Assembly (NCBI GenBank): GCA_903898855.1
Contig: CAIUHB010000161.1
Coordinates: forward strand, 1-15,748
DNA length: 15,748 nucleotides
Source of the DNA: an uncultured Actinomycetes bacterium
Lineage (GTDB): Bacteria; Actinomycetota; Actinomycetes; Nanopelagicales; Nanopelagicaceae
Direction of reading: 5' to 3'
Shown here: in pieces, positions 1 through 15,292 of the stretch
How positions within the stretch are numbered: the stretch's first letter is position 1
Layout: each line of letters starts with the position of its first letter
Position numbers and translations under genes: made by a program
Notes under the pieces: generated by a model
Seen by the model: the letters and a program-made list of their open reading frames with translations, nothing else
What the model was told of the DNA's origin: nothing
Database searches by the model: none

Positions 1-48
1 TTCTATTACAACCTTTACGCCAGCCAGTTCGCCAGCGCCATCGATTAA
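1..48 (+). CDS. 3' end of a truncated upstream gene, product unknown
   Basis: Frame 1 from the window edge reads FYYNLYASQFASAID and then TAA at 46-48. The frame is open from the first base, so this is probably the C-terminus of a gene that starts outside the window. Its stop overlaps the stop of the convergent phosphatase gene by a few bases, as is common for tail-to-tail neighbours. Fifteen residues are too few to assign a family. A polysaccharide-biosynthesis protein would fit beside a tyrosine phosphatase, but that is only a guess. Confidence 0.5.
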   Translation, partial: FYYNLYASQFASAID

Positions 49-530
49 ACCAAGCGGGCGATAAGTCCATCCACGGCGCGCTCGATCATCGCCAGTACAT
101 CCTCGAAGGCGTCGATCTCGTGGCCCCATGGGTCCGGCACGACTAACTTCTCGGCCTCCGGCGCATACGGATCAATGTCCGCCAGCGCAGGATCAAATTG
201 GCGCAGGAGAAATACCTTCGACTTAAACGTCGCATCATCGGTAGCGCCCTTAATGATGGCGCGGTTTGTTTGGTCCATGCAGAGAATCAAGTCTTGCGAA
301 TCAAAGGATGTCCGCCGGAACTGTCGAGCGGTATGCGTGTAGTCATATCCCGCTTCGCTCCATACCCGCTCCGATAAATTATGCGCAGGTTCACCCTCGT
401 GATAATTCGCGGTGCCCGAGCTGTTGACGATGATGCGCGGATGGTTCAGCGAAGAAGCGCGATCATGCAGGACTGCCGCGGCCAGAGGGGAGCGGCAGAT
501 ATTGCCGAGACAGACCATCTCGATATGCAA
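45..530 (-). CDS. low-molecular-weight protein tyrosine phosphatase
   Basis: Cytoplasmic phosphatase that removes phosphate from phosphotyrosine through a cysteinyl-phosphate intermediate. With the start used here (TTG at 530) it has 161 residues, the usual family length. The N-terminus carries the P-loop VCLGNICRSP (nucleophile C7, phosphate-binding R13, CX5R). The general-acid motif DPWG lies near the C-terminus (about D133), and an HTARQF segment sits mid-protein. The frame stays open to a TTG at 596, but that codon lies inside the repeat unit beginning at 594 and would add an atypical 22-residue leader. TTG 530 has AAGGG about 10 nt upstream and gives LHIEMVCLGN, matching the short first strand of the family; ATG 518 would remove that strand. 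In bacteria such enzymes often work with tyrosine kinases of exopolysaccharide export. No kinase is visible here. Confidence 0.9.
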   Translation of the reverse strand: MHIEMVCLGNICRSPLAAAVLHDRASSLNHPRIIVNSSGTANYHEGEPAHNLSERVWSEAGYDYTHTARQFRRTSFDSQDLILCMDQTNRAIIKGATDDATFKSKVFLLRQFDPALADIDPYAPEAEKLVVPDPWGHEIDAFEDVLAMIERAVDGLIARLV

Positions 531-653
531 TTCGCTCTTGCCCTTGAGTGCGGATAGATACGCGTCATTCACAAGAAGAGAATAGTGGTAACGCAAAGTA
601 GTTTTAATAATTCACGAATAACCTTGCTATGTATTCTCAATAGGCATACGCTT

Positions 654-682
654 CAAGAAGAAGAAACGGGGATTGCTCCCCG
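654..682 (-). terminator. intrinsic-terminator-like hairpin after micropeptide ORF, copy 1
   Basis: On the minus strand CGGGGA-GCAA-TCCCCG (682 to 667) forms a 6-bp stem with a GNRA tetraloop, extended by a G·U pair, followed by the pyrimidine-rich tail TTTCTTCTTCTT (down to 655). The second repeat has the matching stem with a GAAA loop and the tail TTCTTCTTCTT. Position (about 48 nt after the micropeptide stop) and the U-rich tail suggest transcription termination. A second small hairpin (CCCG-7 nt-CGGG, 692-706) lies between ORF and terminator in both copies. Confidence 0.6.
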
Positions 683-729
683 CCCCTTCTACCCGCGCGA
701 TACGGGCCTAGGTTTGTGGACTTTGTCTC

Positions 730-813
730 TTATCGAGATGCTCTCCAAGTGATTATTGCAGCAATTAGGTTGCTGATAATGACCACTAGAGAAATCCACT
801 TACTAAGACTCAT
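730..813 (-). CDS. 27-residue single-helix membrane micropeptide, copy 1
   Basis: The ORF starts with ATG at 813, preceded on the minus strand by a strong Shine-Dalgarno GGAGGT (818-823) at normal spacing, and ends with TAA at 730-732. The peptide begins MSLSKWISL, continues with a hydrophobic stretch (VVIISNLIAAII, residues 10-21) and ends TWRASR. That is a one-span membrane peptide with a positive C-terminal end. Seen directly: the second copy (2152-2235) has the same length, start, stop and SD. Of 27 codons 11 are identical, 9 differ synonymously (including a Ser AGT to TCT switch) and 7 differ by conservative changes confined to the membrane span. That is a coding signature. Function is unknown. 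A type I toxin-like or small regulatory membrane peptide is an inference from size, topology, tandem copies and the structured leader. Confidence 0.75.
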   Translation of the reverse strand: MSLSKWISLVVIISNLIAAIITWRASR

Positions 814-833
814 ACCTACCTCCGTTCTCTAAG

Positions 834-940
834 TTCCACCGGAAGGTGGAAAGCAATTGGTTTGTTTGTGGTGACGGATCAAACCAATGGAGAACGAAAG
901 AAACGGGCAAGACGCAAATTACGCGCCTTGCCCATTTCTT
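834..940 (-). ncRNA. structured 5' leader of micropeptide mRNA, copy 1
   Basis: On the minus strand, upstream of the micropeptide, three hairpins follow one another. First is a long stem at 898-940 (14 outer pairs, a mismatch, three inner pairs). Second is a 9-bp stem ATTGGTTTG/CAAACCAAT at 856-888. Third is TTCCACC-TTCC-GGTGGAA at 834-851, just before the SD. In copy 1 the long stem has a C·A mismatch if read on the plus strand but a U·G wobble on the minus strand, which points to a minus-strand RNA. The ACCUUC portion of the third hairpin can also pair with the SD (GGAGGU) in six pairs, which would hide it. Confidence 0.5.
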
Positions 941-999
941 ATTGGGGGAGAAGGTCTAACTGTGGAGAAGCCGGGCTGTGCAAAAGCGTCAATCCCATT

Positions 1000-1005
1000 T
1001 ATTCT
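1000..1005 (+). promoter_or_regulatory. -10 element TATTCT, likely leaderless promoter of DUF4236-TPR gene
   Basis: TATTCT matches the TAnnnT -10 consensus and ends 6 nt before the ATG at 1012, so transcription would begin at or very near the start codon. No convincing Shine-Dalgarno or -35 box is visible. The same arrangement occurs before three other plus-strand genes in the window. Confidence 0.45.
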
Positions 1006-1011
1006 TGAGAT

Positions 1012-2010
1012 ATGACTCTTCGCTTTCGCAAATCGGTAAAAATCATTCCTGGCGTACGGATCAATTTTAACAAGAACTCCACGAGTATGACCTTCGGAGT
1101 CCGCGGCGCACACGTCACTATGAATAACCGAGGTGATATCTATCGCTCGGTAGGAATCCCAGGCACTGGTCTCTACGATGTTGAGCGCACGTCGGGCAAG
1201 GCCCGCGCTGCTGCCCGTGCGCAACAACCAGCCCTCACAATGCCGCCCATCACTAAGGTCGGTCTCTTCGCACCGGCATACATGAAGGCGTTCGCCAAGA
1301 TCGTCGGCGATCTTTCACCTGAGAAATACGGCGAATTCATCGAACAATTCCCAGACCACGCACTGACCCCCAATCTCTTCAGCACAACTGCTCTAGTGGG
1401 CAAAGCGGACACATTCGAAAAGGGTGCAAAGATTCTGGCGGATTCATGGGCGCGACGCGAAGAAATTGCCAAAGATGACCTCTTCATCAAGTTCTCGGAA
1501 GCCATCACGGTCCATGTCCCAATAACGCCAGGGTTGACCGTCCCCATGCCCTTCACAATTAAGGCGCTGGGGCTTATTTATGCCGAGATTCTCCAGGCGC
1601 AGCAGAAATACACAGAGGCGTTAGCAGTCCTTGCTGAACTGGATACTGATATCGACGTCCAGATTTCCACCGCGGAGGTTGAGCTGCAGCTCGGTCAATA
1701 TGACGAAGTCATAGATACGACTGAAGGTGTTACGAACGAGGACGATGGGACCGCCATTCTCTTGATTTTTCGTGGGATAGCGATGCGGGAACAAGGAAAC
1801 TTCGAGGCGGCAATCGAGGAGTTCAAATTGGCGCGTGCGAAGAAATCTAATCATTCGGAAGTTCTCAATAAGGCGCTCTTTGAAAGAGGAGTGACCTATC
1901 AGAAAATGAAGAAGACGGCACTTGCTATCAAGGACTTCGAAAAGATTCTTGTATCCGATGGATCCTACGAAGGCGTAAAAGAAAAGTTGGCTGAGTTAAA
2001 GAAGGAATAG
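1012..2010 (+). CDS. DUF4236 domain protein with C-terminal TPR repeats
   Basis: The N-terminal 55 or so residues (LRFRKSVKIIPGVRINFNKN ... VGIPGTGLY) fit the DUF4236 pattern: RFRKS near the start, a GVRxN strand, and a closing GIPGTG. This family is often fused to other domains, and its function is unsettled. Residues about 60-185 show no family I recognise. From about 185 to 332 there are helical pairs of TPR type, for example the helices around IYAEILQAQQKYTEALAVL, GIAMREQGNFEAAIEEFKLA and ALFERGVTYQKMKKTALAIK. No signal peptide or membrane span is seen, so it is probably cytoplasmic. The start is fixed by the family, whose members begin just before RFRKS. The gene lies alone on the plus strand, exactly between the two direct repeats, and faces the minus-strand transcript of copy 2. 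Confidence 0.85.
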   Translation: MTLRFRKSVKIIPGVRINFNKNSTSMTFGVRGAHVTMNNRGDIYRSVGIPGTGLYDVERTSGKARAAARAQQPALTMPPITKVGLFAPAYMKAFAKIVGDLSPEKYGEFIEQFPDHALTPNLFSTTALVGKADTFEKGAKILADSWARREEIAKDDLFIKFSEAITVHVPITPGLTVPMPFTIKALGLIYAEILQAQQKYTEALAVLAELDTDIDVQISTAEVELQLGQYDEVIDTTEGVTNEDDGTAILLIFRGIAMREQGNFEAAIEEFKLARAKKSNHSEVLNKALFERGVTYQKMKKTALAIKDFEKILVSDGSYEGVKEKLAELKKE

Positions 2011-2077
2011 TTCAACTCAAAGTAGTTTTAATAATTCACGAATAGCCTTGCTATGAATCCTCAACAGGCATACGCTT

Positions 2078-2107
2078 TAAGAAGAAGAAGCGGGGATTTC
2101 TCCCCGC
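2078..2107 (-). terminator. intrinsic-terminator-like hairpin after micropeptide ORF, copy 2
   Basis: On the minus strand GCGGGGA-GAAA-TCCCCGC (2107 to 2090) is a perfect 7-bp stem with a GNRA tetraloop, followed by TTCTTCTTCTT. Compared with copy 1 the loop changes from GCAA to GAAA, still GNRA, and the outer pair changes from G·U to G-C. The companion hairpin ACCCG-7 nt-CGGGT is at 2115-2131. Both changes preserve minus-strand RNA structure. Confidence 0.6.
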
Positions 2108-2151
2108 GACTCCTACCCGCTGATTACGGGTCTAAATAAGTGGTACACCTC

Positions 2152-2235
2152 TTATCGAGATGCTCTCCAGGTAATTACTGCGACAACTAAGTTGCCGAAG
2201 ATAATCGCCAAAGAGATCCATTTAGATAAACTCAT
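2152..2235 (-). CDS. 27-residue single-helix membrane micropeptide, copy 2
   Basis: Paralogue of the ORF at 730-813. ATG is at 2235, SD GGAGGT (2240-2245) at the same spacing, and TAA at 2152-2154. The peptide begins MSLSKWISL, has the hydrophobic segment AIIFGNLVVAVI (residues 10-21) and ends TWRASR. The ends are identical in protein to copy 1 although their codons differ at Leu3, Ser4, Lys5, Ile7, Leu9 and Thr22. Only the membrane span varies, with V/A, V/I, I/F, S/G, I/V and A/V exchanges. This fits selection on a membrane-inserted peptide with conserved charged or aromatic ends. Function is not known. It lies downstream, on the same strand, of the TPR operon, separated by the long 2322-2364 hairpin. 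Confidence 0.75.
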   Translation of the reverse strand: MSLSKWISLAIIFGNLVVAVITWRASR

Positions 2236-2255
2236 AAACACCTCCGCTCTCTAAG

Positions 2256-2364
2256 TTCCACCGGAAGGTGGAATAACAGGAAGTTCTGGTTCGGTGATGA
2301 ATCGAACGACCTGGAGAACGAAAGAAACGGGCAAGACGCAAATTACGCGCCTTGCCCGTTTCTT
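2256..2364 (-). ncRNA. structured 5' leader of micropeptide mRNA, copy 2
   Basis: Equivalent of the copy 1 leader. A long hairpin at 2322-2364 has a 14-bp perfect outer stem AAGAAACGGGCAAG/CTTGCCCGTTTCTT. A hairpin with GGTTCG (2288-2293) and CGAAC (2303-2307) replaces GGTTTG/CAAAC of copy 1, a true compensatory change. The TTCCACC/GGTGGAA hairpin (2256-2273) stands before the SD. The long hairpin is also 48 nt past the stop of the minus-strand gene ending at 2412, so it could serve as that operon's terminator, although its tail is only weakly U-rich. Confidence 0.5.
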
Positions 2365-2411
2365 ATTGGGGGCGAAGGTCTAACTGTGGAGAAGAAGCAA
2401 TTGTGGAAAAA

Positions 2412-3011
2412 CTATTTAGCGCTATTTGCGGATGGCGTTGGCGAAGCCGTCTCCGTGTACATGTTTATATACATCGCAGCCATATCGTTATTTCCACCAA
2501 TCCCACTATTCACGATGCGACCGGTCGCATCAATCTGCTGGTAACCCAATTGAGTCAGATAGATCTCGCGGCCCATTTGGATTGGCGTATCGAGCCATAA
2601 GGCAACGGGTGTAAACGAAAACTTACCCTCAGCGCAATCAGGCGTGCAGTTATTCTCAAAGTATTCACCCGTGCCCTGGGCTGACAGCGGTGTCCACGTG
2701 GTCCATCGAATGCCACGAATGCCGGTGTTCCCATCAGCGCACGCAAAGTAGACCACATCCGGCTTATAACTATTTGGAATTTCGCAGACATAGGTAAAGA
2801 CATGGGTCCCTGCCGTTTTCACATTTAATGCAGTGGTGGGTGTGGGCCATGGAGTGGGGGAGGGCGAAGCAGTATCAACCACGGTGGTAGTCGACGAATC
2901 GTTGGAGCTGGTGAAAAGTGAGGCGCCCACTCCAATAACCAACACTCCACCGATGAGACCGGCCAGTGCAATCAAGGCAATCCGCCCTGGCCCCACGTTA
3001 AAGGTTTTCAT
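2412..3011 (-). CDS. membrane-anchored extracytoplasmic protein, function unknown
   Basis: 199 residues. A short cytoplasmic N-terminus is followed by one hydrophobic segment (about residues 9-33, IALIALAGLIGGVLVIGVGA), a Ser/Thr/Pro linker (about 34-60), and an extracytoplasmic domain. That domain contains YVCEIPN, a CADGNTGIRGIRWTTW stretch, GTGEY and NNCTPDCAEGKF, with four cysteines in all that may form disulfides. I recognise this Cys/Trp pattern from uncharacterised secreted actinobacterial proteins but cannot name a family. The C-terminus is again Ser/Pro-rich. There is no lipobox. The ATG overlaps the TGA of the upstream TPR gene (ATGA, 3008-3011), indicating translational coupling, so the TPR protein and this anchored protein are probably made together. 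Confidence 0.8.
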   Translation of the reverse strand: MKTFNVGPGRIALIALAGLIGGVLVIGVGASLFTSSNDSSTTTVVDTASPSPTPWPTPTTALNVKTAGTHVFTYVCEIPNSYKPDVVYFACADGNTGIRGIRWTTWTPLSAQGTGEYFENNCTPDCAEGKFSFTPVALWLDTPIQMGREIYLTQLGYQQIDATGRIVNSGIGGNNDMAAMYINMYTETASPTPSANSAK

Positions 3012-3955
3012 GACGCGATTGTTTCACTTTCATCATTGACCAGCGCTGCAAATCGCTCCAACCGCGCCATCACCTCGTTCGCTTCCTTTTCGCGGCCTGT
3101 CGCCCGATAAACATCGGCCATGACGGTTTCAATATCGAGAATGTCCTTGTACCGCGGTGGGTTTTGTGACTGCATCAAAGTCAGCGCTTCTCGACAATTT
3201 TTGAGCGCGTCGTCCCACATATAACGGGCGACTGATATTTTGCCCAGCAAGAAAAGCCCTTCACCGACCCTTCGGTCTTTTTCATAAATTCGAAAGACTT
3301 CAAGCGCCCGTTCCACATACCCCTGCGCTTCGATAGGAGAGCCCATCGCAAGTAGCGCCTCGCCAATATTGTGATCGGCCATCGCGACGTATTCGTATTG
3401 CTCGTTCTCTTTTGCCAACTGTCGGGCCTCGCGTTGCACTTCTAGCTCCTCATCGAACCGCCCCAGTTCATACAAGCACGCGCCCACCATCAACAAGTCA
3501 TAAACGACCGCTTCGGTATCCGCATTCGCGCGATTCTGCTCCAGTGTTAGTCGGTAATAAGCCAGCGCAGCCTCGTAATCCTTATCCTCAAACTTCCACC
3601 AGCATCGTTTGTTCTCCCACACGACGCCGGTCTTGTCAGCTGCCTCTCGAAACAGCTCGAGTCCTCGGTCTAGGAATGCATACGCCTCGTCATGACGGCC
3701 CAACTCTCGGGCGTTAATGGCGATGGCTACGTAGCTTTCTGCCTGTTCTACCTGCCGCATTGGATCAACCGAGAAGATCTCTAACGCTTCTTCAGCCAAT
3801 CGCATCGAGTGCGCCCATTGATTTGCACGCCAGGCGTATCGAGCCAATTTCATCAGACTCAACGCTCGCTCAAAACCCTCGAGCGCACCCAGCTGCTTCC
3901 ACTCTTCTTGCCAGCAATGAGGGCAACCCCCGTTGTCGTGATGATTCTGACTCAT
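3008..3955 (-). CDS. TPR repeat protein with N-terminal CPHC motif
   Basis: 315 residues, almost wholly alpha-helical TPR-like repeats from about residue 25 to 300, for example AEEALEIF, YAFLDRGLELF, EAALAYYRLTLEQN, EELEVQREARQLA, IEAQGYVERALEVF and DALKNCREALTLM. These form a protein-binding superhelix. The N-terminus has HHDNGGCPHCW (C11, C14), a possible half metal site; no second Cys pair is nearby, so metal binding is uncertain. There is no signal peptide. It sits 31 nt after another TPR gene and overlaps the next gene by ATGA, so it is the middle gene of a three-gene operon. It is clearly a diverged relative, in architecture at least, of the protein encoded at 3987-4904. The partner it binds cannot be read from the sequence. 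Only a weak SD is visible, as expected for an internal operon gene. Confidence 0.85.
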   Translation of the reverse strand: MSQNHHDNGGCPHCWQEEWKQLGALEGFERALSLMKLARYAWRANQWAHSMRLAEEALEIFSVDPMRQVEQAESYVAIAINARELGRHDEAYAFLDRGLELFREAADKTGVVWENKRCWWKFEDKDYEAALAYYRLTLEQNRANADTEAVVYDLLMVGACLYELGRFDEELEVQREARQLAKENEQYEYVAMADHNIGEALLAMGSPIEAQGYVERALEVFRIYEKDRRVGEGLFLLGKISVARYMWDDALKNCREALTLMQSQNPPRYKDILDIETVMADVYRATGREKEANEVMARLERFAALVNDESETIAS

Positions 3956-3986
3956 GCGCTCTGTTTATCCAATCCCACTGACGCCC

Positions 3987-4015
3987 CTACTGTCCGAGAA
4001 TTTCTCGGACAGTAG
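3987..4015 (-). repeat. perfect 14-bp inverted repeat spanning a stop codon
   Basis: CTACTGTCCGAGAA, one base, then TTCTCGGACAGTAG: a 29-nt perfect hairpin with both arms inside the last nine codons and stop of the TPR gene. No U-run follows on the minus strand (GGGGCGTCAGTG), so it is not a standard intrinsic terminator. It may be an mRNA-stabilising or processing structure, an attenuator between the two TPR genes, or a protein-binding palindrome. Confidence 0.8.
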
Positions 4016-4904
4016 CAAGACGACCTTCGATTTCCGCAGCGAGCTCTTCGCGATCTGTTGCTCGGCAGAGCATCGCTTGAGCCGTTTCGATACTGACAAT
4101 CAACTGCCAGTCCGTTTCATACATCGAACGAGCGGCGAACAATGCGCTTGATAGCGCCTCATTTGCCTCATCCCATTGCTCGAGCAGGTAGTGCGCCTCG
4201 CCCTTGATGGCCAGACACCAGGCGATGCGAGCATCGCTGGCAATCGTGCGAGCCACATCAAGTGCACGATTCGCGTGCACAAGAGCCTCTGCGCCATCCT
4301 TCATCTCAGTCAAGATGCCGGCAATAGATTCGTCGCACCGCGCGACTTCCACGATTGCCTTGCGCTCCTTGAAGAGATCTCGGGCTCGTCGATATGTAGT
4401 TATTGCTTCGGGGTAATTCTCGAGTTGGCCATATGCCACGGCCACGTTATATAAAGACTTCGCTAACCATTCCTGATTGCCATCTATCTCATTGACTCGC
4501 ACCGCTTCTAGATGGCAGTTGAGGTTGTTCTGCCAGTCTCCTAGTTCGCCGTACCAGATTGCTTGGGTCCGAAGAAGATCATCCACGAAGGGATAGTGAT
4601 CTGCTCGGTAGATATCTACCGCCTTGCCTAAGACGTTCACCGCGTCTTGGGTTCGATGGAGTTCTTTAAGTGAGTAACTGATGCCGGTATACGCATTTGC
4701 GATATCGGCGTTTGCAGCTTTCGCGCCGAGTGATTGATAAATCTCTGACGCTGTCTCTGCCAGCGCTAGAGCTTCATCTCCTGCTCCTCGATACGTTGCC
4801 TGTTGTGCTAACCGAAGTAATACTTCGGCTCGTTCTTCTCCGTCGGTCTGCGGCAGTTGCTGCCACAGCTCTTTCTCGCTCGGATCTTTATCTTCTATTG
4901 CCAC
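3987..4904 (-). CDS. TPR repeat protein, first gene of operon
   Basis: 305 residues composed of about six to seven TPR-like helical pairs between residues 25 and 300, including EVLLRLAQQATYRGAGDEAL, AYTGISYSLKELHRTQDAV, SLYNVAVAYGQLENYPEAIT and CLAIKGEAHYLLEQWDEANE. No enzymatic domain, DNA-binding motif, signal peptide or membrane span is seen, so a cytoplasmic scaffold or adaptor is most likely. The start is GTG at 4904, placed just after a GGGGAAGGA purine tract; no ATG exists nearby in frame. The final codons (TVREILGQ-stop) form one arm pair of a perfect inverted repeat. It is transcribed away from the coiled-coil gene at 4998 from a shared 93-nt region and is followed 31 nt later by a second TPR gene. 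Confidence 0.85.
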   Translation of the reverse strand: MAIEDKDPSEKELWQQLPQTDGEERAEVLLRLAQQATYRGAGDEALALAETASEIYQSLGAKAANADIANAYTGISYSLKELHRTQDAVNVLGKAVDIYRADHYPFVDDLLRTQAIWYGELGDWQNNLNCHLEAVRVNEIDGNQEWLAKSLYNVAVAYGQLENYPEAITTYRRARDLFKERKAIVEVARCDESIAGILTEMKDGAEALVHANRALDVARTIASDARIAWCLAIKGEAHYLLEQWDEANEALSSALFAARSMYETDWQLIVSIETAQAMLCRATDREELAAEIEGRLATVREILGQ

Positions 4905-4919
4905 TCCTTCCCCTGAGGA

Positions 4920-4961
4920 TTACGTAACGTATATCGGCCCTCTGACATTCCCGAGGATGTC
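4920..4961. promoter_or_regulatory. divergent intergenic region with two palindromes
   Basis: The 93 nt between the divergent genes at 4904 and 4998 contain TTACGTAA (4920-4927, a perfect 8-nt palindrome extended by a further CGTAT) and GACATTC-CCGA-GGATGTC (4944-4961, one mismatch). Either could be an operator. No factor can be named, and short palindromes also arise by chance. Confidence 0.3.
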
Positions 4962-4985
4962 CGATTTGTGAGCTTTTCTAGCCCC

Positions 4986-4991
4986 TACTCT
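4986..4991 (+). promoter_or_regulatory. -10 element TACTCT, likely leaderless promoter
   Basis: TACTCT (TAnnnT) ends 6 nt before the GTG at 4998, placing the transcription start at the start codon. No SD is present. The first in-frame ATG is at 5010 and would be an alternative start. Confidence 0.4.
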
Positions 4992-4997
4992 TAGTCA

Positions 4998-5897
4998 GTG
5001 CAACGCCAAATGACCCGAATCGGTCGCTTTAAGGACTTTGAAGTCTGCCTTGAGCCCGGGGAATTCTTAAAGGATCTACGTATTTACGAAGACCAAAAGA
5101 GCTACTCACAGTATGACGAGCTCCTTCGAGAAAAGAATCAACTAACCGATGCCATTGCTCTACATGAAAGAGAACTGGAGGAGTGCAAAACTCAACTCCT
5201 GGATCTCCGATCAGAGTACGAAAAATGGAACAATATTTATCAGCTTAGACCCCCTAATTCGGATATCTCGCTTGTTAAATCAAAGCGTATGGATTTGCAC
5301 GAATCAATATTTACAGTTCAAGTCCGCCAGTCCAAGCTTCTCGTAAAAAGTCAAAATGACACATCGAGACTGGAAGATATTACCTCGCTGACATTGACAG
5401 TTTTCCCGCTGGCAGAGAAGTCCCGAAAGTTTTACGAAATATATGATACCGAAATTAGTTATTACTCGCGATTTACGCTATCTGGACCATATAGCGATTA
5501 TCCGTTCGTGATTTCACCCAAGGATTATTATGGAATCCTTGGATACTCGCTTCCGGAATGTCACGTACTCAATGAGGAAACCGAACTGGCTAAGTTGGTT
5601 TTCGGTGGAAAAGTCGGGCGTGAATTTTCACGATTGGTTCCGAGCGGCCAAGTAGAGGAATTTCGAATATTGACGACCGAGGTTATGTCTTCTTCGGCAA
5701 TCAATGAAGTGATGAATCTATTCCAAGCTCGGCAGGAAACACATAGTCGCCTTGCGCGCTCTCTCTCAAAAAACAGACATGACGCTGGCGATCATGATCG
5801 CTGGAAAGACGGAGCCAGGGATGACGCAAGTGCATTATGTAATGAATGCAAAGTTCCTGTTTTCGGGCGGCACAAGCCCGGCTGCAAATTCCACTAA
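4998..5897 (+). CDS. coiled-coil protein with C-terminal Cys/His cluster, function unknown
   Basis: 299 residues, not recognised. After a short N-terminal segment (RIGRFKDFEVCLEPGEF) there is a predicted coiled coil at about residues 35-78 (EKNQLTDAIALHERELEE and following), a second helical stretch to about 125, then a mixed region rich in Tyr and Phe (about 145-190) and a charged, His/Asp-rich linker (about 255-275). The extreme C-terminus is CNECKVPVFGRHKPGCKFH: C-x2-C-x8-H-x3-C-x2-H spacing that could bind one zinc ion. No membrane span or signal peptide. Base composition and codon use look more AT-rich than the neighbouring TPR genes, which could mean later acquisition. GTG 4998 or ATG 5010 are both possible starts. 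It ends one base from the convergent small gene at 5899. Confidence 0.7.
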   Translation: MQRQMTRIGRFKDFEVCLEPGEFLKDLRIYEDQKSYSQYDELLREKNQLTDAIALHERELEECKTQLLDLRSEYEKWNNIYQLRPPNSDISLVKSKRMDLHESIFTVQVRQSKLLVKSQNDTSRLEDITSLTLTVFPLAEKSRKFYEIYDTEISYYSRFTLSGPYSDYPFVISPKDYYGILGYSLPECHVLNEETELAKLVFGGKVGREFSRLVPSGQVEEFRILTTEVMSSSAINEVMNLFQARQETHSRLARSLSKNRHDAGDHDRWKDGARDDASALCNECKVPVFGRHKPGCKFH

Positions 5898-5898
5898 G

Positions 5899-6084
5899 TC
5901 ATACGTAGGCCCCGAAGGTCACCACCGCGTGAGCGTGCATCGCCCGGAGCAGGTCCACCTCCTCCTTCTGGCCTATCAGGGACATCCACCCACACGTGCA
6001 GAGCGCCTGGTGGAACTGCCCCATGGGCACCAGCCCATTCCAGTGCTCGGCCCGAATCCGCTTTCTCTCTTCAGAATCGCTCAT
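5899..6084 (-). CDS. small CxC...HxH putative zinc-binding protein
   Basis: 61 residues. A basic and acidic N-terminal helix (SDSEERKRIRAEHW) precedes CTCGW (C29, C31) and, 18 residues later, HAH (H50, H52). CxCGW followed by a helix ending in HxH is a layout seen in small uncharacterised zinc-binding proteins, and the four ligands are suitably placed. The stop is one base from the stop of the convergent gene ending at 5897. ATG 6084 is preceded by AAGGG at about 9 nt spacing, an acceptable SD. The role is unknown; a protein- or nucleic-acid-binding accessory factor is possible. Confidence 0.6.
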   Translation of the reverse strand: MSDSEERKRIRAEHWNGLVPMGQFHQALCTCGWMSLIGQKEEVDLLRAMHAHAVVTFGAYV

Positions 6085-6387
6085 GCCAATTAGCCCTTAC
6101 TGGACCCTCATAAGCAGAAGATCCGCTCTTCTAGCGGTGTCTTTCATCGCTAGCAGGTCTTCCACTGGTTCCACCGTGCGCGGATGCGCGGTTGGCGCCA
6201 AGCAAGCCAGGGGGCTTATCGCTTGGTCTTCGATCGACCTAGGTAAAACATAGCAAGGGCCTCTGACATGAGTCCCTTACATATGTATAGACACGCGGGG
6301 AGGGGAATTGTTGGGGTGATAGACCAATTCAGGCTTATTCACCGAGTCGTCATGCAAATCCGTATACCCATTATTTAACGCTGGTTA
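6085..6387. other. intergenic region without a confident gene
   Basis: No convincing gene in about 300 bases. A short minus-strand frame (GTG 6174 to TAA 6097) reads MEPVEDLLAMKDTARRADLL and a few more residues, ending 12 nt before the ATG of the small CxC protein. It looks helical but lacks an SD. A second short minus-strand frame starts at an ATG near 6269 after AAGGGA and runs 17 codons. An imperfect hairpin CTAGCGGTG-5 nt-CATCGCTAG lies at 6131-6153. No tRNA or terminator with a U-tract is evident. The right end should contain upstream promoter elements of the giant gene. Confidence 0.4.
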
Positions 6388-6393
6388 TAGAGT
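6388..6393 (+). promoter_or_regulatory. -10 element TAGAGT / TTATAG region of the surface-protein cluster
   Basis: GGTTATAGAGT at 6383-6393 includes TAGAGT (TAnnnT) ending 7 nt before ATG 6401, and TTATAG slightly upstream. Either is placed for a leaderless or near-leaderless transcript. GAGG at 6396-6399 is only one base from ATG 6401, too close for a normal SD. Confidence 0.35.
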
Positions 6394-6400
6394 TTGAGGC

Positions 6401-9400
6401 ATGACGGAACGAGTAATGGGACGCACTCGGCCTGCGCTGATTCGCCTTCTTCTGAGCGCACTCGGAGCGCAATTGTTGGTGACTCTTACAGCGCTCGCCG
6501 GCTCCTATCCAGCCCACGCTGGATCTCTTGCTTCGGTTCGCCTCACTTATAAGGTCAACGGAACGCCGACTGAAGCGAATTTTAATCCGGTCTCTAATAA
6601 CGGCGTTCTTGGGGGCTATGGATATAGCAAGACTGGAGTTGGGTCATTTACCTATTACTTGAACCCCGGTCAATATCGAATGATTGGTATTGCTACGAAC
6701 GGCCTGAGTGGTGGAATATCCAATCTCTGCACCGTAAGCACAGATTCAACCACTGACTGTCCCGTTGCTATCCCTGCTCCGAATTTCCCGTTTCAAATCA
6801 CGAATAGCGACGGCTCCAACTACGCCAAACCTGCGAACTTGGCTATGACTATTAAGCGCACGGTAGATGGGAATCTATTCGATTTTTCTTGGAATAACAC
6901 GGCCCAGGATTCCGGAACTCTTGCACTCCAAGATGGCACTTATTTAATAAGTGTCTTTAATCAGACAGATGCAGCTCTTGCAAAGGCAAATGGACAATCT
7001 GTGAATCAATTTGATTTTAACTTAGTGATGTCAGGTGGTGCCGTATCGAGTTTCGGGCAGGTCGGTGGCTCGTCTATTTCGCCGACAGGGGGAAAATATC
7101 ACCTGCCGATTAAGCCAAACAATTTCACAGGAGTTGTGACTGCAGGTGGAACTCCTGTGGCTAATGAATATATCAACATCAGCCTGAATCCAAATTGCAC
7201 CGACGCTCAGTTGGCCGCTAAGACCTGCCAGGTCCAACAAATATACGGACAAACGGGAAGCGATGGGAGTTTTTCCGTTAATTTGCCTAGTGGAACCGGA
7301 AGTATGTATGCCTATGGATATGGTGGCTCAACAAGTTATGTAAATAGCTCGTTCGCCGTGACTTCTTCTGGCGACTCGGTCACGTCACTTATGGACTCGA
7401 ACAATAATGTGATCGCCTCAGTCGGCGGAATGTACACACTTCCCTTATCGCCCGCGAATGTTCAAGCGACATACACAGTGGGCGGATCCGGAGTGCAGGG
7501 TTATGTTCGAAATATTTTTGACACCATAAATAACAAGTACGCAAACACCAACGCTTCCGGATTCACCCCAGATGGCAAATTCGGATTAGCCCTCCCGGCG
7601 GGCGCCTATGATATTTGGGTTAATCCTGGGTCTAACGTGGCGTCCAATCGCGGCAACTGCCAAGTAGCAGCAACCGGAACGTCCAACTGCTCGATAACGG
7701 CGCCGGCGACAAATTTTAGCTTCGACATTAGCAGCGATACGGGGGTCGCGCTCGGACAGAACGCATCTGCAATTTTGACTTGGCTATCATCAAATTACAG
7801 CAACCAGGATTTTCTTAGAGCGACAAACGGAACGTTCAATGAGTCATTGAGTGATGGCAAATACTCGATGGACATTTATTCCTTCCAGGGAAGTTCGGAT
7901 GGTTTAAAAAGGACGCTTACTTTTGCTGTTGCAAATGGAGTCTTATCTCCGCTCACTGATCAAAGCAGTGGCGCGGTAATACAGTCATATCAAACAGGTA
8001 AATATCATCTCCAACTCGCAGCTCCAAATTTCTCAGCTGTTATTCAAGCCAATGGAAGTCCAGACCCGAATATTTACGCTCAGATCAATCAAATTATCAC
8101 AACACAGACTGGAACCATCTCTAATTACTCCTTTGGAGCGAACGCAGACTCAAATGGAAATTTGCAACTCAACCTTCCCAATGGTTTAAATGCAATTCGC
8201 ATCTTCCCGAGCACTCAAGAAACCCCGACGGTGGTATCGGCGCTATTTAACGTGCAGGTGGACTCAGGATCCGTTACTAGCGTCAAGAATCTCAATGGGG
8301 ACACTCTCAGTGCGGTTGCCGGCAACTACACCTTAAGCTTCCAGCGCCCTAGCATGATCGGAAAGGTCACAATTGGTGGCGTCCCCGCTTCGGGTTATGT
8401 GTGGGGCGTCTGGTCCACAATATTGAATCAGTCTGTCAGTTATGACTACTCCAACCTTGATAACAGTGGAAACTACGCGTTGATGTTGCCAGCCGGCAAT
8501 TACGACATACTATTCAATCTTCCGGGCGCTCCAGTCTCCGTCATTAATTGCAACTCAGTAGCGAATTCACAATCAACCTGCAATTTATCCCTTCCAGCTA
8601 CCAACTTCTCGCTCTCTCTGAAGAATTCTTCGGGTGATACCCCCACGGCGAATACTTGGGCAAACATCAGTCGCGCGGCAGTAAAGGGTCAATCTTTTTC
8701 TGGATGGGGTCAAGGGCTTAACTTAGATTCAACCGGCAAGTACTCGGAGTCGTTGCAAAATGGTTCGTATGTGCTTAATGTAGGTTCGAATACTCCCTTT
8801 GCCGATGGTGCGTCACGATCATTCACCTTTGATGTTGTTGCTGGCGCCGTTACAAATTTCAAAGACACGTTTGATAACTCCTTAGTATCTGTTGGATCTG
8901 GCGGAGCTACTCAGATTTCGTTGGCAAATCCAACTTTTAAGGCTGTCGTTACAGCAGGCGGAAATCCAGAGATAAGTGCTTATTACTATGGTTATGACAC
9001 GAGTGGCCGGAAACAGAACAACGCTTGGTTTAACGGGTATAGCGATAGCCAAGGCTTGCTTGGCGCTCGTCTCTCTGATGGTGACTATTACGTTCAGGTC
9101 AATCCGTCAGGTAATGACGCATCTCCCTATGTAAACAGTAATTATCGGGTCTCGGTCGCTAATGGAGCCGTGACTTCCTTCACCGCTGATGACGGCAGTC
9201 CAGTACTTACCCAAGGTGGCGTTTATCAACTCTCTCTATCGGCACCAAATCTAACCGGCAGTTTTTCAATCGGCGGGGTTTCTGCGATTGACCACAATAT
9301 TAATGTGACGGGGGTATACAGCCTGGACTCACAGCAGTTCGTAAACTCCCGAAGTGCCAGTACCCAACGCGGCAAGTACGCTCTTTTAGCTAATCCAGGA

Positions 9401-12400
9401 AATTACCTGATCTCTACAGACGAGTATGGGAAAGCGGGCATATTTTCGCCATGCACTATTGGAAATACAGCAAGCACATGTGACATTAATATCCCAGCAG
9501 ACAATTTTAAATACAAAATCATGGGTACGGACGGCACTCAGCTCAATACCAACGTGGCGTCGAAAGTTAATTTCCAGACGCAGAATTTTGGTCAAGGCTT
9601 CTGGATGCAGATGCAGACAGGAAATATTTTCGCGACGCCGGTCCGTGTTCCAGCTGGAATAACCGGGCACTATGAGGTCTACGTTTACCCTACGGACGGT
9701 TCAAACCGATATGGAATAGCTTCTGACTTCCGTGTAGATGTGACCGGTGAATCGATTACGGCTGTGACGAACATGCTTACCGGGCAAGTAGTGACCGCGG
9801 GCGCGGACGGCGTTTATCCTCTAGCCCTCGCGCAACCAAACATTGGCGGCACTGTCGTAGCCCCAGATGGCACAACGCCGATACCCAACTCTCAAGTGAC
9901 AGCAGCCGACAACAATTGGTATCAAATGACCACTGACAACAGCGGCGCTTTTGCATCCTATATAGATCAGGATGGCGTGTATCAAGTTTGGGCACAAGCT
10001 CCGCAATACGACACAACGAAAGCGGATTCTGCTCGCGTAAGTCAAACGATCACAAGCGGAGCGGGCAACGCATCGATGAAGTTGACGCTACGTACACCTG
10101 ATGTTCGTGGAACAGTGAATGGCCCGAGTGGATTATCTCCCGACAACTCAGTCCAGGTTCTCAAGCAGGATTCGCTCGGAAATTTCAATTTCGTTAATAG
10201 CGATGTTGCCTCGCCGCGGAACACTAATGCCAGTGGGCAATTCGCCTTCTATCTAGATCCAGGTGTATACGAGTTTTATGCGCAAACCGATGCATCAAGC
10301 GCAAATGGCGGCTACGCCTTCTCAAATAGCTGCACAATCACGGACACCTCGACACTTACGACCTGTGATATCCAATTGCGGCCATTTAATGCAAAAGTAA
10401 AGATATTGGGTTTAAATGCCAAGCCCTACACAACCGCTAACGTCTATTTCAATTATGTGGGTTCAGTCGATAAATCCGATGTGAATTCCGGGGTTCTTGG
10501 AAAAGTCGGAGATAACCAGCAGGTAGACGCTTTAGGTCAGGCTGAAGAAGCACTCGCAGATGGTCAGTGGACAGCAAGTGTCAATATCTCTGGCACGGGC
10601 ACGGAAGCTCCCACCTCGGTTCAAATTACTGTTGAGTCCGGCACCGTCACCTCAATGGTCGACGCGAAGGGAAATCCTTGTGTTCTTGATTCAAATGGGT
10701 ATTGGGAGATACAGCTCCCCACGTCCAACTTGATTGGCACAATTTTCGAACATGGCAATCAGATTTTGTATGGAGCGAGCGTAGATGTGCTTCAAACCGT
10801 GGGCGGTAATCAAAATTGGATCGCTAGCAACTGGGTGAACGGCGGCAAATTCGCGTTCCTGGTGCCTCCAGGTACTTACACGATTCACGTAACACCGTAT
10901 TCGAATCAGCCGTATTCGAGCGGTGCGCCGGTTATGACAAGTTATACCTGCATAGTTCCTGAGCAGGATATTGCGACGTGTAATGTCAATCTGAAAACGG
11001 GCAACTTCCTTGGCCGAGTGACTACTCCCAATGGGCAAACGGATTCTGATAGTTATGCCTACCTCTATAGCGAAGTTACCAGTTCGGATAACGGCAATTA
11101 TGAAAACTTTTATGGCTACATGAATGTTTTTAATGGTCTTTTCTCAGCTGGAGTTGGCCCAGGAGATTATCGCCTTCAGGTAATTCCAACTTCTACAGGT
11201 GCGAGTGTTTACACACCACGGAGTTACTCCATCCATGTCGGTGGCACCGATGATGCTCCAGTAATTGGGAACGTTGTGGACATGGTCACCAATGAAACAC
11301 TTACTGCAGATGATTCGGGCCGTTATTCCTTCAAATTGACCACGCCTTCGATTTCTGGACGCGTCTTGCGTGCCGGAACATCCACACTAGGAATTCCGTG
11401 GGCAGAAGTGGTACCCATCGATAGCTCTGGAAATGAACTATGGCAATATGCGACAAATGCCAACCAGAATGGTGACTACGCATTGACGCTACCCGACGGT
11501 AATTACCATTTGGTTGGTCATAGTTGGGGTGGCAAAGGCAATGCCTACAGCTCCACGAGTGAAGTACCTGTCACGATTAACAATACTTCTCCGATTTCGA
11601 ACTTTAATCTCGGTATGCAAAATCCAAACCTATTCCTTAAAGTGGTACTACCAGGCACTGCAACCCCGGTAGATAACGTTTACGTCAATGCCTGGTTTAA
11701 CGGACAAAATTTCTGGGGAGTCACCAGCAGCGATGGCCTCTTCAGCGCCTATGTTGATACCGCCGTCTTGGGTTCAAGCTGCACAAGCAATTGCGGCATT
11801 CAGCTCAATCCAACAAACTCCGCTGACTATACCCAAGCAACGTACTCACTGAATTCAATCGGTGATGTTGGCTCCAAGGAACTAGGTCAGATCACCGCAA
11901 AAGTCACTTTGTTTATTCCCACCAATGGCATTAAGGGAATTCCGGATAAGTGGGCCTGGATTTCGGTAGATGAACTCAACGACTCTGGCACGGTGGCAAG
12001 TACTGGCTATAACACTAATCAGCTGGGACAAGCAGGCCTCGGTCTTGTGGATGGTCATCACTACGTTCTTACGGCGTATCCCTCAGGTGACTATTACGAT
12101 CGCTACACACCAAAATCGCTGGAAATAAGAAGCTTCTCCGCCGCCGATTCAGGAACAATTTCCATCACCTTTGATTCACCGAACGTTTCGTTTGTTGTCA
12201 CGGACCCATCTGGTCAGGGAAATTCATGGGGCTGGTACGAGGTGAACAAGGTCGACAATGGGGCATCCTCAGCGTATGTCTCGGGATATCTCAATGGGCA
12301 GGGCCGTGGCGCTCAATTCTTGCCAGATGGCGATTACACCTTGCTCTTCCATCCAGGCGGTGCCTCTGGCGTGGATAAGAGCATCGCGCTCACTCTAAGC

Positions 12401-12724
12401 GGTGGCCACGTGACTAATGCGGTTAATGCTTCGGTATCCAATGATGTTGTAGGTGTAAGCCTTGGCGCAGGAAACGTCACCGGAATCGTTCACGGCGCAG
12501 ATGGAACCCCACTGAGCAACGCGCCGGTTACAGCAAAAACGACAAGCGGAGATTCAATTACCGTTACTACCGTGACGCAGGCTGATGGCAGCTTCCAAAT
12601 GAATCTAGATCCTACAAAGGATTGGATTATCGGATCCTTAGACCCAGTAACGGTAGCGAAGGCAACATTGTCACTTCCTGCCAATTCGCCTTCATATACC
12701 GGCCTCGTTCTTAATTTGGCTTAA
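6401..12724 (+). CDS. giant secreted multi-domain beta-repeat protein (carboxypeptidase-regulatory-like repeats)
   Basis: 2107 residues. An N-terminal basic region and hydrophobic core (about 12-34) end in AHAG, a typical Sec signal peptide with cleavage near residue 41. The mature part has about 21 repeats of roughly 85-115 residues, each with a first strand like NFxxxVxxxGxP, a middle G-x-Y/F-x-L-x-LPxGxY motif and a last strand before the next PNF. This resembles carboxypeptidase regulatory-like/prealbumin-like beta-sandwich domains used as spacers in surface adhesins. Five linkers carry a Cys pair (first Cys at 110, 420, 717, 1018, 1311), about 300 residues or three domains apart; another is at 1517. 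It is rich in Asn, Ser, Thr, Gly and Tyr. It lacks LPXTG, a C-terminal membrane span and recognisable catalytic motifs. ATG 6416 is an alternative start. It likely acts on the cell surface as a stalk, adhesin or matrix component. Its stop overlaps the next start (TAATG). Confidence 0.9.
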   Translation: MTERVMGRTRPALIRLLLSALGAQLLVTLTALAGSYPAHAGSLASVRLTYKVNGTPTEANFNPVSNNGVLGGYGYSKTGVGSFTYYLNPGQYRMIGIATNGLSGGISNLCTVSTDSTTDCPVAIPAPNFPFQITNSDGSNYAKPANLAMTIKRTVDGNLFDFSWNNTAQDSGTLALQDGTYLISVFNQTDAALAKANGQSVNQFDFNLVMSGGAVSSFGQVGGSSISPTGGKYHLPIKPNNFTGVVTAGGTPVANEYINISLNPNCTDAQLAAKTCQVQQIYGQTGSDGSFSVNLPSGTGSMYAYGYGGSTSYVNSSFAVTSSGDSVTSLMDSNNNVIASVGGMYTLPLSPANVQATYTVGGSGVQGYVRNIFDTINNKYANTNASGFTPDGKFGLALPAGAYDIWVNPGSNVASNRGNCQVAATGTSNCSITAPATNFSFDISSDTGVALGQNASAILTWLSSNYSNQDFLRATNGTFNESLSDGKYSMDIYSFQGSSDGLKRTLTFAVANGVLSPLTDQSSGAVIQSYQTGKYHLQLAAPNFSAVIQANGSPDPNIYAQINQIITTQTGTISNYSFGANADSNGNLQLNLPNGLNAIRIFPSTQETPTVVSALFNVQVDSGSVTSVKNLNGDTLSAVAGNYTLSFQRPSMIGKVTIGGVPASGYVWGVWSTILNQSVSYDYSNLDNSGNYALMLPAGNYDILFNLPGAPVSVINCNSVANSQSTCNLSLPATNFSLSLKNSSGDTPTANTWANISRAAVKGQSFSGWGQGLNLDSTGKYSESLQNGSYVLNVGSNTPFADGASRSFTFDVVAGAVTNFKDTFDNSLVSVGSGGATQISLANPTFKAVVTAGGNPEISAYYYGYDTSGRKQNNAWFNGYSDSQGLLGARLSDGDYYVQVNPSGNDASPYVNSNYRVSVANGAVTSFTADDGSPVLTQGGVYQLSLSAPNLTGSFSIGGVSAIDHNINVTGVYSLDSQQFVNSRSASTQRGKYALLANPGNYLISTDEYGKAGIFSPCTIGNTASTCDINIPADNFKYKIMGTDGTQLNTNVASKVNFQTQNFGQGFWMQMQTGNIFATPVRVPAGITGHYEVYVYPTDGSNRYGIASDFRVDVTGESITAVTNMLTGQVVTAGADGVYPLALAQPNIGGTVVAPDGTTPIPNSQVTAADNNWYQMTTDNSGAFASYIDQDGVYQVWAQAPQYDTTKADSARVSQTITSGAGNASMKLTLRTPDVRGTVNGPSGLSPDNSVQVLKQDSLGNFNFVNSDVASPRNTNASGQFAFYLDPGVYEFYAQTDASSANGGYAFSNSCTITDTSTLTTCDIQLRPFNAKVKILGLNAKPYTTANVYFNYVGSVDKSDVNSGVLGKVGDNQQVDALGQAEEALADGQWTASVNISGTGTEAPTSVQITVESGTVTSMVDAKGNPCVLDSNGYWEIQLPTSNLIGTIFEHGNQILYGASVDVLQTVGGNQNWIASNWVNGGKFAFLVPPGTYTIHVTPYSNQPYSSGAPVMTSYTCIVPEQDIATCNVNLKTGNFLGRVTTPNGQTDSDSYAYLYSEVTSSDNGNYENFYGYMNVFNGLFSAGVGPGDYRLQVIPTSTGASVYTPRSYSIHVGGTDDAPVIGNVVDMVTNETLTADDSGRYSFKLTTPSISGRVLRAGTSTLGIPWAEVVPIDSSGNELWQYATNANQNGDYALTLPDGNYHLVGHSWGGKGNAYSSTSEVPVTINNTSPISNFNLGMQNPNLFLKVVLPGTATPVDNVYVNAWFNGQNFWGVTSSDGLFSAYVDTAVLGSSCTSNCGIQLNPTNSADYTQATYSLNSIGDVGSKELGQITAKVTLFIPTNGIKGIPDKWAWISVDELNDSGTVASTGYNTNQLGQAGLGLVDGHHYVLTAYPSGDYYDRYTPKSLEIRSFSAADSGTISITFDSPNVSFVVTDPSGQGNSWGWYEVNKVDNGASSAYVSGYLNGQGRGAQFLPDGDYTLLFHPGGASGVDKSIALTLSGGHVTNAVNASVSNDVVGVSLGAGNVTGIVHGADGTPLSNAPVTAKTTSGDSITVTTVTQADGSFQMNLDPTKDWIIGSLDPVTVAKATLSLPANSPSYTGLVLNLA

Positions 12725-14028
12725 TGAAACTACGCACTTATCTCGCCTTTGTTCTAGGGAGCGCACTTGTAGCCGCGATCCAAGTGAGTAATCCGTATAT
12801 GAGCTACTCGGCTGCAATTCCTCTTGTGGCAAATGTAGTGGTTCATCCGAGTGTTGATGCCAGCTATCAAAATGGCAGCGTCACCGTCTCTTGGGACTCG
12901 GTAACTGTCGCAACGCAATACACAGTGCGTGCCACTCAGGTCGGTACGAGTACATATGTAACAACCACGGTGAGTGGAGCTGGAAATACGCAGGCGGTAG
13001 TTTCCAATCTCATCGGTGGAGCAAGCTACATCATTCAAGTGCGCACGATTTCAAATCTTGATTACAGTGACTGGACTTCCAATTCACTCACGGCCCTTCC
13101 CACGACCCTGCCCAAGGCTCCGGGTAAACCAACAGCCGTTCCAGATGTTGGCTCCGCAACTATTTCGTGGACGCCGCTCGCCGGACTTGAGGATGGCGGC
13201 TCGGAAGTCACGTCATATCTATTGACTGAGACAAATAGCGGAAACACCCTTTCGGTAGGACCTAGCACCTCCTCTGCGACGATGACAGGTCTCACAGAAG
13301 GAAGTACGGCTGCCTTCACGGTCACGGCCATTACAGCGGTCAATAAGACTGGTTCAACGTCGGTAGCTTCGGATCAAGTAACCATTGGTTCCAGTAGTGG
13401 CGGTGGAGGTGGCCCATCGGCATCTCCAACGCCAACCGCAGGTCCCACAGTTGTTCAAACTGCTCAGTCGAATCAACAAAGTGGCGGCGGGGGAGGTGGC
13501 GGGGGAGGTGGCGGCTTCTTCGGAGGCGGCGGCGGTGCGCCGATGGCAACCGCAAATCCATTCGATACTCACACTGCAACGTCAAAGCCCATCCCGACAC
13601 CAACGCCTACTCCATCACCAACACCAAGTGCGACGGTAACGCCAACTCCGACCCCTATGCCCACGCCTACGCCAACACCGAGTGCAACCAAAGTCGCAAC
13701 GAAAGTTATCGAAGTGTGCACAACGGCTAAGGCAAAGAGCGCTAAGAGCAAGCCTGTCGTCAGTTGTAAATCCGTAACTGTCGAAATCACTCCCAAGCCA
13801 AGCGCTAAACCATCTGTAAAGGTGACACCTAAGGTCACGCCAAAGAGCTCGCCTGCAGCTTCAAGGCTTCCGGCTGCGAAAACTTCGGTCAAAAGTCCGA
13901 CACCGAAGGCCTCGGCTAAGAGTGCGTCCGCTAAGAAACAGATAACGATCACGTGCACCAACGGCAAGAAGAATCTTGCAATCTCTGGTTCGTCACCAGC
14001 CTGTCCGGCCGGATTCCACCGCGAGTAA
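12724..14028 (+). CDS. secreted FnIII protein with Gly-, Thr/Pro- and Lys-rich tail
   Basis: 434 residues. A signal peptide (about 1-30: MKLRTYLAFVLGSALVAA, ending near SYSA) precedes two fibronectin type III domains (about 35-125 and 130-220; SVTVSWD, YIIQVRT, SATISWTP and AAFTVTAIT are typical strands). A Gly-rich stretch follows (about 222-275, with a run of eleven Gly), then a Thr-Pro repeat region (about 285-325), a Lys/Ser/Ala/Pro-rich basic region (to about 405) with Cys pair 332/348, and a C-terminal motif ITCTNGKK...GSSPACPAGF (C411, C427). The disordered basic and Pro-rich tail suggests wall spanning or binding to anionic polymers. No LPXTG. The ATG overlaps the giant gene's TAA and has no SD, so translation is probably by reinitiation, tying its level to the giant protein. 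Confidence 0.88.
   Translation: MKLRTYLAFVLGSALVAAIQVSNPYMSYSAAIPLVANVVVHPSVDASYQNGSVTVSWDSVTVATQYTVRATQVGTSTYVTTTVSGAGNTQAVVSNLIGGASYIIQVRTISNLDYSDWTSNSLTALPTTLPKAPGKPTAVPDVGSATISWTPLAGLEDGGSEVTSYLLTETNSGNTLSVGPSTSSATMTGLTEGSTAAFTVTAITAVNKTGSTSVASDQVTIGSSSGGGGGPSASPTPTAGPTVVQTAQSNQQSGGGGGGGGGGGFFGGGGGAPMATANPFDTHTATSKPIPTPTPTPSPTPSATVTPTPTPMPTPTPTPSATKVATKVIEVCTTAKAKSAKSKPVVSCKSVTVEITPKPSAKPSVKVTPKVTPKSSPAASRLPAAKTSVKSPTPKASAKSASAKKQITITCTNGKKNLAISGSSPACPAGFHRE
13486..13694 (+). repeat. low-complexity coding repeats (poly-Gly, Thr-Pro)
   Basis: GGC/GGA/GGT/GGG runs, with a tandem ggcgggggaggt unit near 13487-13512, encode poly-Gly. From about 13594 to 13690 imperfect CCA-ACG/ACC/ACT units encode (Thr-Pro)n with Ser interruptions. 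Such tracts are prone to length change between strains. Confidence 0.75.
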
Positions 14029-14075
14029 GCGGCGTGGAGCGCTAAGCATTGATGCGTGATATTGGATAATTGAGC

Positions 14076-14081
14076 TATCCT
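14076..14081 (+). promoter_or_regulatory. -10 element TATCCT before third surface gene
   Basis: TATCCT (TAnnnT) ends 5 nt before ATG 14087, consistent with leaderless expression of that gene separately from the upstream pair. A competing reading is GGAG at 14089-14092 acting as SD for GTG 14099. Confidence 0.35.
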
Positions 14082-14086
14082 AATGA

Positions 14087-15289: not shown

Positions 15290-15292
15290 AGA

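Follow-up and report, generated by a model that had tools for sequence, protein, structure and literature searches.

Does a repeated piece of DNA in a freshwater actinobacterium contain a gene that is too short to be annotated, and if it does, what would the encoded peptide do? The question is raised by a stretch of 15,748 nucleotides (nt) from an uncultured member of the Nanopelagicaceae (contig CAIUHB010000161.1, positions 1 to 15,748; the whole stretch is called the window). A 377-base element occurs there twice in direct repeat, reading on the minus strand from 970 to 594 (copy 1) and from 2394 to 2018 (copy 2), and each copy carries an open reading frame (ORF) of 27 codons. We conclude that this ORF is very probably a translated micropeptide gene, judging from the way its two copies have diverged. 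The chances appear about even that each element is self-contained and encodes a type I-like membrane toxin or a self-limiting stress peptide, with translation restrained by its own mRNA. Of the toxin reading, what is demonstrated is that the ORF is duplicated and that its two copies are conserved at the protein level.

The ORF list and a codon comparison place the ORF at 730..813 in copy 1 (MSLSKWISLVVIISNLIAAIITWRASR) and at 2152..2235 in copy 2 (MSLSKWISLAIIFGNLVVAVITWRASR), both on the minus strand. Each is preceded by a Shine-Dalgarno (SD) sequence GGAGGT (818..823 and 2240..2245, minus strand) that ends 4 nt before the ATG; copy 2 has an extra in-frame GTG two codons upstream of the ATG, overlapping the SD. 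The ORF copies differ at 21 of 84 bases, distributed 9/3/9 over the codon positions, and 17 of these 21 changes are transitions. Differences affect 16 of the 27 codons: nine are synonymous, including a serine encoded by AGT in one copy and TCT in the other, and seven are replacements, all located in residues 10-20. With the Nei-Gojobori method, the nonsynonymous and synonymous divergences (dN and dS) were 0.18 and 1.09, a ratio of 0.17 based on just 19 synonymous sites. As a coding null, the same types of substitution were placed at random in the copy-1 ORF 20,000 times. Start, frame and stop survived in 12.1% of these placements, an open frame that also retained 20 or more of the 27 residues was found in 0.08% (P 0.0008), and the observed BLOSUM62 score was reached by none.

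By inspection of ORFs of at least 12 codons on both strands, this ORF, if counted from its ATG, is the only one whose start and stop are preserved in the two copies. A survey of the whole window gave 116 ATG-started ORFs of 20-45 codons (nested starts counted), and the two copies are the only ones that combine an SD-like site with a 16-residue stretch of mean Kyte-Doolittle hydropathy of at least 1.6. All evolutionary evidence is one comparison of two copies. The sequence-only reading of this DNA had described two 377-base direct repeats, a minus-strand 27-codon ORF in each with GGAGGT at the same spacing, and a pattern of nine synonymous and seven replaced codons with the latter only in the hydrophobic span; the repeat search, the alignment and the codon comparison bear out this description. 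Its conclusion that the ORF is a real gene below the usual annotation length is well supported by the dN/dS ratio, the random-placement test and the ORF survey. Even without toxicity, this is an apparent conserved gene that gene finders with a floor of 30 codons would miss.

On simple hydropathy scales, the product qualifies as a small hydrophobic single-helix peptide (<60 amino acids). The grand average of hydropathy is 1.16 and 1.10 for copies 1 and 2, the helix core (residues 7-22) has Kyte-Doolittle values of 2.55 and 2.45, and the net charge is +3. Both copies have a cationic C-terminus with R24 and R27, a feature that is usual but not universal in type I toxins. Within the helix the polar Asn15 is conserved, and tryptophans are located at both interfaces (Trp6 and Trp23). 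The mean hydrophobic moment is low (0.28 and 0.20).

Read along the minus strand, the 5' part of the element consists of an invariant 21-nt stretch, a first hairpin, a pyrimidine-rich strand, a variable hairpin and an invariant hairpin. The 3' part contains GGAGGT, 4 bases, ATG and the 27 codons, followed by a terminator-like hairpin whose tail is T-rich and by another conserved stretch. Hairpin 1 (898..940 and 2322..2364, minus strand; repeat search and fold prediction) is a long inverted repeat with 18-19 predicted pairs and is terminator-like on either strand. Hairpin 2 (856..888 and 2277..2313, minus strand) is predicted at the same place in both copies with much changed sequence, at -7.8 and -10.8 kcal/mol in copies 1 and 2, despite 10 of 25 differing columns over alignment columns 101-125; of the four core pairs in its consensus, one is altered on both sides. 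Hairpin 3 (834..851 and 2256..2273, minus strand; fold prediction and alignment) is invariant, with the sequence UUCCACC-UUCC-GGUGGAA.

In both copies the pyrimidine-rich strand UUUCGUUCUC (890..899 and 2314..2323, minus strand), which we call the anti-SD strand, is predicted to pair with GAGARCGGAG (820-829 and 2242-2251), burying most of the SD and enclosing hairpins 2 and 3. This stem is retained in both copies, and the single A-to-G change gives a G-U pair. For the leader alone (86-88 nt), folding energies had z-scores of -3.2 and -3.5, and equally low values were obtained in 2 and 1 of 500 shuffles. For 401-nt stretches containing the elements, each compared with 100 shuffles, z was -8.4 and -8.2 on the minus strand vs -4.9 and -5.1 on the plus. 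Two further ideas about the leader were dropped. G-U asymmetry was considered as a sign of the transcribed strand, with five of six variable local pairs favoring the minus strand; the same test on the plus-strand fold favors the plus strand, so it is uninformative in this respect. A mok-like upstream ORF was rejected because the leader ORFs of the two copies have different lengths or stops; none of 12 codons or more has its start and stop in both, and thus no mok-like one is evident.

The end of the ORF lies in an invariant 21-nt block (727..747 and 2149..2169, minus strand; alignment and pairing energies) that comprises codons 23-27, the stop and 3 nt, and includes the motif GGAGAGC. Codons 23-27 are unchanged even at synonymous sites, in an ORF with differences in 16 of its 27 codons (P 0.0057, codon permutation). 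The energy of pairing between GGAGAGC and the anti-SD strand is -12.5/-12.4 kcal/mol, vs -13.0 for the SD. Because the motif can bind this strand with nearly the strength of the SD, a two-state mRNA is possible, in which the anti-SD strand would pair either with the SD or with the ORF end. The pairing strength of GGAGAGC was matched in 3% of synonymous recodings (P 0.03; codon usage of six window genes).

Downstream of the ORF, the terminator-like hairpin with its T-rich tail is located at 655..682 in copy 1 and at 2081..2107 in copy 2 (minus strand). The first was found by folding and is not picked up by a simple terminator scan, and the second was found by that scan (stem 2107-2090). On the plus strand, the two copies share a promoter-like TTGCTA-17-TACGCT at 624..652 and 2048..2076, a candidate antisense promoter that is not significant: at least one such shared site occurs in 20% of 1000 column-shuffled alignments (P ~0.2). 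In both copies the motif TAATTT is located at the hairpin-1 loop. Hairpin 1 appears symmetric enough to terminate transcripts on either strand, which would include a plus-strand RNA.

These features can be arranged in a mechanism. The mRNA is predicted to begin at or before hairpin 1 and to end at the terminator-like hairpin, and its leader to fold as a three-way junction in which the SD pairs with the upstream pyrimidine-rich strand. The peptide would be a membrane-active type I-like toxin or a self-limiting stress peptide. Silencing would come from the leader together with an antisense RNA that is transcribed off the opposite strand and terminates at hairpin 1, and the peptide would be released once the leader opens or the antitoxin RNA is lost. 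It may then insert between the interfacial Trp6 and Trp23 and lower the membrane potential, its cationic C-terminus lying at the face of the membrane. The diverged leader hairpin could tie each copy to its cognate antitoxin RNA alone, a proposed copy-specific response that parallels the variable V1 of the OrzO and OrzP RNAs acting on zorO. Taken at its fullest, this would be a first type I toxin-antitoxin family of Actinobacteria, with a duplicated 27-residue toxin, a two-state mRNA switch and copy-specific antitoxin RNAs acting via the drifted hairpin; we regard this full version as doubtful.

Several results weigh against the toxin reading. No antitoxin RNA was detected, the sole plus-strand promoter-like site common to both copies being within chance, and no promoter-like site was common to both copies on the minus strand. 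Over positions 400-2600 the simple scan found one terminator-like site vs 2.7 expected from shuffles and two promoter-like sites vs 2.5 expected. Mean SD accessibility was not below that of shuffled leaders (349 of 500 shuffles were as low or lower, for each copy); shuffled leaders hide the SD as well, presumably because composition alone favors pairing. Removal of the anti-SD strand in silico opened the SD in copy 1 and left it closed in copy 2. Variable pairs in a strand's own consensus fold were lost on the other strand in 16 of 19 cases for the minus strand and 13 of 18 for the plus strand, so neither strand is singled out. The best site in the 3' untranslated region pairs with the anti-SD strand at -11.3/-10.7 kcal/mol, which leaves the ORF end a small margin and means that it is not a unique partner. 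The P of 0.03 for its pairing strength is post hoc and counts one identical block in two copies, and just two sequences were available for all comparisons.

Searches for relatives weigh on the same side. A search with the peptide and the nucleotide element, suggested in the sequence-only reading, was run on genome, viral, plasmid and phage collections and gave no homologue; actinobacterial whole genomes were not searched with a model. An SD-plus-peptide pattern had one match in genome contigs, in an Aphanizomenon contig, which was rejected as chance since the frame stops after 17 residues. Since the pattern insisted on GGAGG without mismatch and on seven residues in addition to Met, relatives that have diverged would escape it. 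In viral contigs neither the SD-plus-peptide pattern nor the leader pattern had a match, and peptide alignment gave 28 pattern stretches, none of which passed tblastn at E 1e-3, a strict threshold for a 27-residue query. A looser pattern gave four stretches in viral contigs (L002-L005) that we read as chance: they have no GGAGG-type SD, and their frames stop after 16 residues or continue to 39-48. With copy 1 only, blastn returned a 28-base match in one plasmid record and a 25-base match in two records of one phage (E 0.3-0.4), and tblastn found nothing for copy 1 against plasmids or copy 2 against phages. There was no match in PDB and none in NCBIfam at E <=10. The best matches in Pfam (E 0.25 and 0.098) and PHROGs (0.12 and 0.067) concern families that are either unrelated or of unknown function.

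The closest rival is that the ORF encodes a harmless, regulated single-span micropeptide that tunes a membrane enzyme, transporter or protease by binding to it, the structured leader serving as a condition sensor. The same coding and leader evidence applies to it, no antitoxin RNA is required, and Asn15 in the helix with tryptophans at both interfaces would suit helix-helix contact. No membrane enzyme adjoins either copy, however, and close duplication is known from type I toxin loci as far as the accessible portions of two reports go (PMC3919570, PMC4147584). We consider this explanation possible, though we would not put it at even chances.

Another explanation is that the element is chiefly a structured RNA or a non-autonomous repeat, in which the ORF is incidental or forms the translated part of a dual-function RNA. 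Consistent with this are the folding z-scores of -8, the location of the copies in one convergent and one divergent intergenic region, and the better conservation of the element ends than of the center: 22-24 of 25 columns are identical near both ends and 15-21 of 25 in the middle, with identical runs at the ends reaching 46 nt. These ends take in bases beyond the presumed transcript. Either the functional unit extends past the transcript, as an antisense promoter would need, or the ends were partly homogenized by recombination; two copies cannot decide between these. The retention of start, stop and 20 of 27 residues amid synonymous turnover argues against a mainly structural element. Terminal inverted repeats or a target duplication were not seen by eye at the element ends, and the repeat search (at least 25 nt) gave only the hairpin-1 sequence within the elements. 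No Rfam match at the gathering score was found in the elements, and four matches in 560-2430 (E 1.5-2.5) are all far under gathering scores. This makes the explanation unlikely. The idea that GTTAGAC, close to the element end, marks an integron attC site was dropped as well, since by eye the opposite end of copy 1 has no partner core site. Least probable is a leaderless bacteriocin of two peptides, or some other membrane-active peptide that is secreted. Two similar cationic hydrophobic peptides of about 30 residues could be cited for it, as could an Rce1-like protein of the CAAX protease type, a family that includes bacteriocin immunity proteins, though it is encoded 13 kb away where the window ends (15293-15748). 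Against it, the copies lie 1.4 kb apart with an opposite-strand TPR gene between them, Pfam matches of ten scanned ORFs (the 2107-residue ORF was outside the scan) contain no transporter, and the amphipathicity of the peptide is low.

In the repeat search the copy pair consists of three ungapped blocks of 85%, 80% and 98% identity at a spacing of 1422-1424. Each element is closed by a 27-nt block (594-620 and 2018-2044), 3' of the terminator-like hairpin, that is identical in both copies and for which no role was found. Copy 1 fills a divergent intergenic region, with the gene for a low-molecular-weight tyrosine phosphatase on one side and a DUF4236-TPR gene (1012-2010, plus strand) on the other, and copy 2 fills the convergent region between the DUF4236-TPR gene and a minus-strand gene for a 199-residue protein that has no Pfam match; TPR proteins are also among the neighbors. 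Because the elements flank the DUF4236-TPR gene as direct repeats, recombination between the copies could delete this gene or have introduced it. The DUF4236-TPR protein has 130 relatives at E <= 1e-5 (7998 candidates scored). Among the matches listed, the nearest two are 98% and 71% identical, a Candidatus Nanopelagicaceae entry is 44% identical over 99% of the length, and Eubacteriales and Burkholderiales matches cover just about one fifth of the protein.

Elsewhere in the window, a SAM-IV riboswitch (6120-6239, minus strand; Rfam RF00634, 62.9 bits) lies directly upstream of a 61-residue minus-strand ORF (6084-5899), which has no Pfam match and would be an unusual SAM riboswitch target. Among 14 control genomes, this riboswitch family was found only in Corynebacterium glutamicum; together with the matches of the DUF4236-TPR protein, this would put the host close to the Nanopelagicaceae. 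A repeat-rich plus-strand ORF of 2107 residues (6401-12724), by eye probably secreted, is followed by two fibronectin type III domain proteins.

The Nanopelagicaceae-like lineage is known for streamlined genomes, and if the toxin reading is true, a type I module is present in such a lineage. A type I case in this freshwater actinobacterium would also break the known phylum range. In the accessible portions of the cited papers, to which the comparisons below are also confined, membrane-associated type I toxins are described only in Proteobacteria and Firmicutes (PMC8309996), or type I toxins only in these and Tenericutes, a narrow range ascribed to search bias (PMC12390103). Among the papers listed by searches of open-licence literature, none mentions a type I system in Actinobacteria in its title or in the opening of its abstract.

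Type I toxins share a length below 60 residues, hydrophobicity, one membrane helix and a cationic C-terminus, and their genes share a structured leader, an occluded ribosome-binding site and duplication (PMC8309996, PMC4147584, PMC3919570). Occlusion of the ribosome-binding site is a hallmark of type I toxin mRNAs (PMC6733600, PMC4147584), and close duplication is a known habit of the loci (PMC3919570, PMC4147584). Of the analogy drawn in the sequence-only reading, the anatomy of the peptide, the structured leader and the duplication fit and occlusion of the SD is predicted, whereas the antitoxin RNA was not detected and toxicity is inferred. Since both are unproven, we do not file the locus as a type I system, although its workings would be most like those of a type I toxin gene.

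Among individual systems, msoT1/msoA1 of Microcystis (Cyanobacteria) is likewise a candidate type I locus outside the known phyla (PMC12390103); its product MsoT1 is predicted to contain two helices and has been expressed in E. coli as a test, whereas the present locus is known from sequence alone. The LDR repeats of E. coli (Ldr/Rdl) are also large direct repeats with one small hydrophobic toxin gene each and a long leader (PMC4147584), but their peptides have 35 residues vs 27 here, no sequence relation was found, and an antisense RNA is hypothetical in our case. As in AapA/IsoA and Hok/Sok mRNAs, the SD is paired with an anti-SD in the predicted fold and alternative pairings exist (PMC6733600). 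Constraint of synonymous sites by RNA structure would resemble aapA3, for which it was reported at Ser9 (PMC6733600). Unlike in these mRNAs, the anti-SD lies upstream of the SD, the putative second partner is the 3' end of the ORF, antisense RNA and mRNA processing would be hypothetical, and no mok-like ORF is evident. ZorO-OrzO/ZorP-OrzP of E. coli belongs to another phylum and shows no sequence relation, and no RNA gene like those of that locus was detected here. The zorO/zorP locus is also duplicated, encodes a hydrophobic peptide (29 residues) behind a long 5' leader, and has a short region that varies between the copies (PMC3919570). This region is the V1 of the small RNAs in zorO/zorP, where the RNA gene is divergent (PMC3919570), whereas the variable part here is the leader hairpin. 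By analogy, the layout is closest to zorO/zorP (PMC3919570) and to the folded aapA and hok mRNAs (PMC6733600, PMC4147584).

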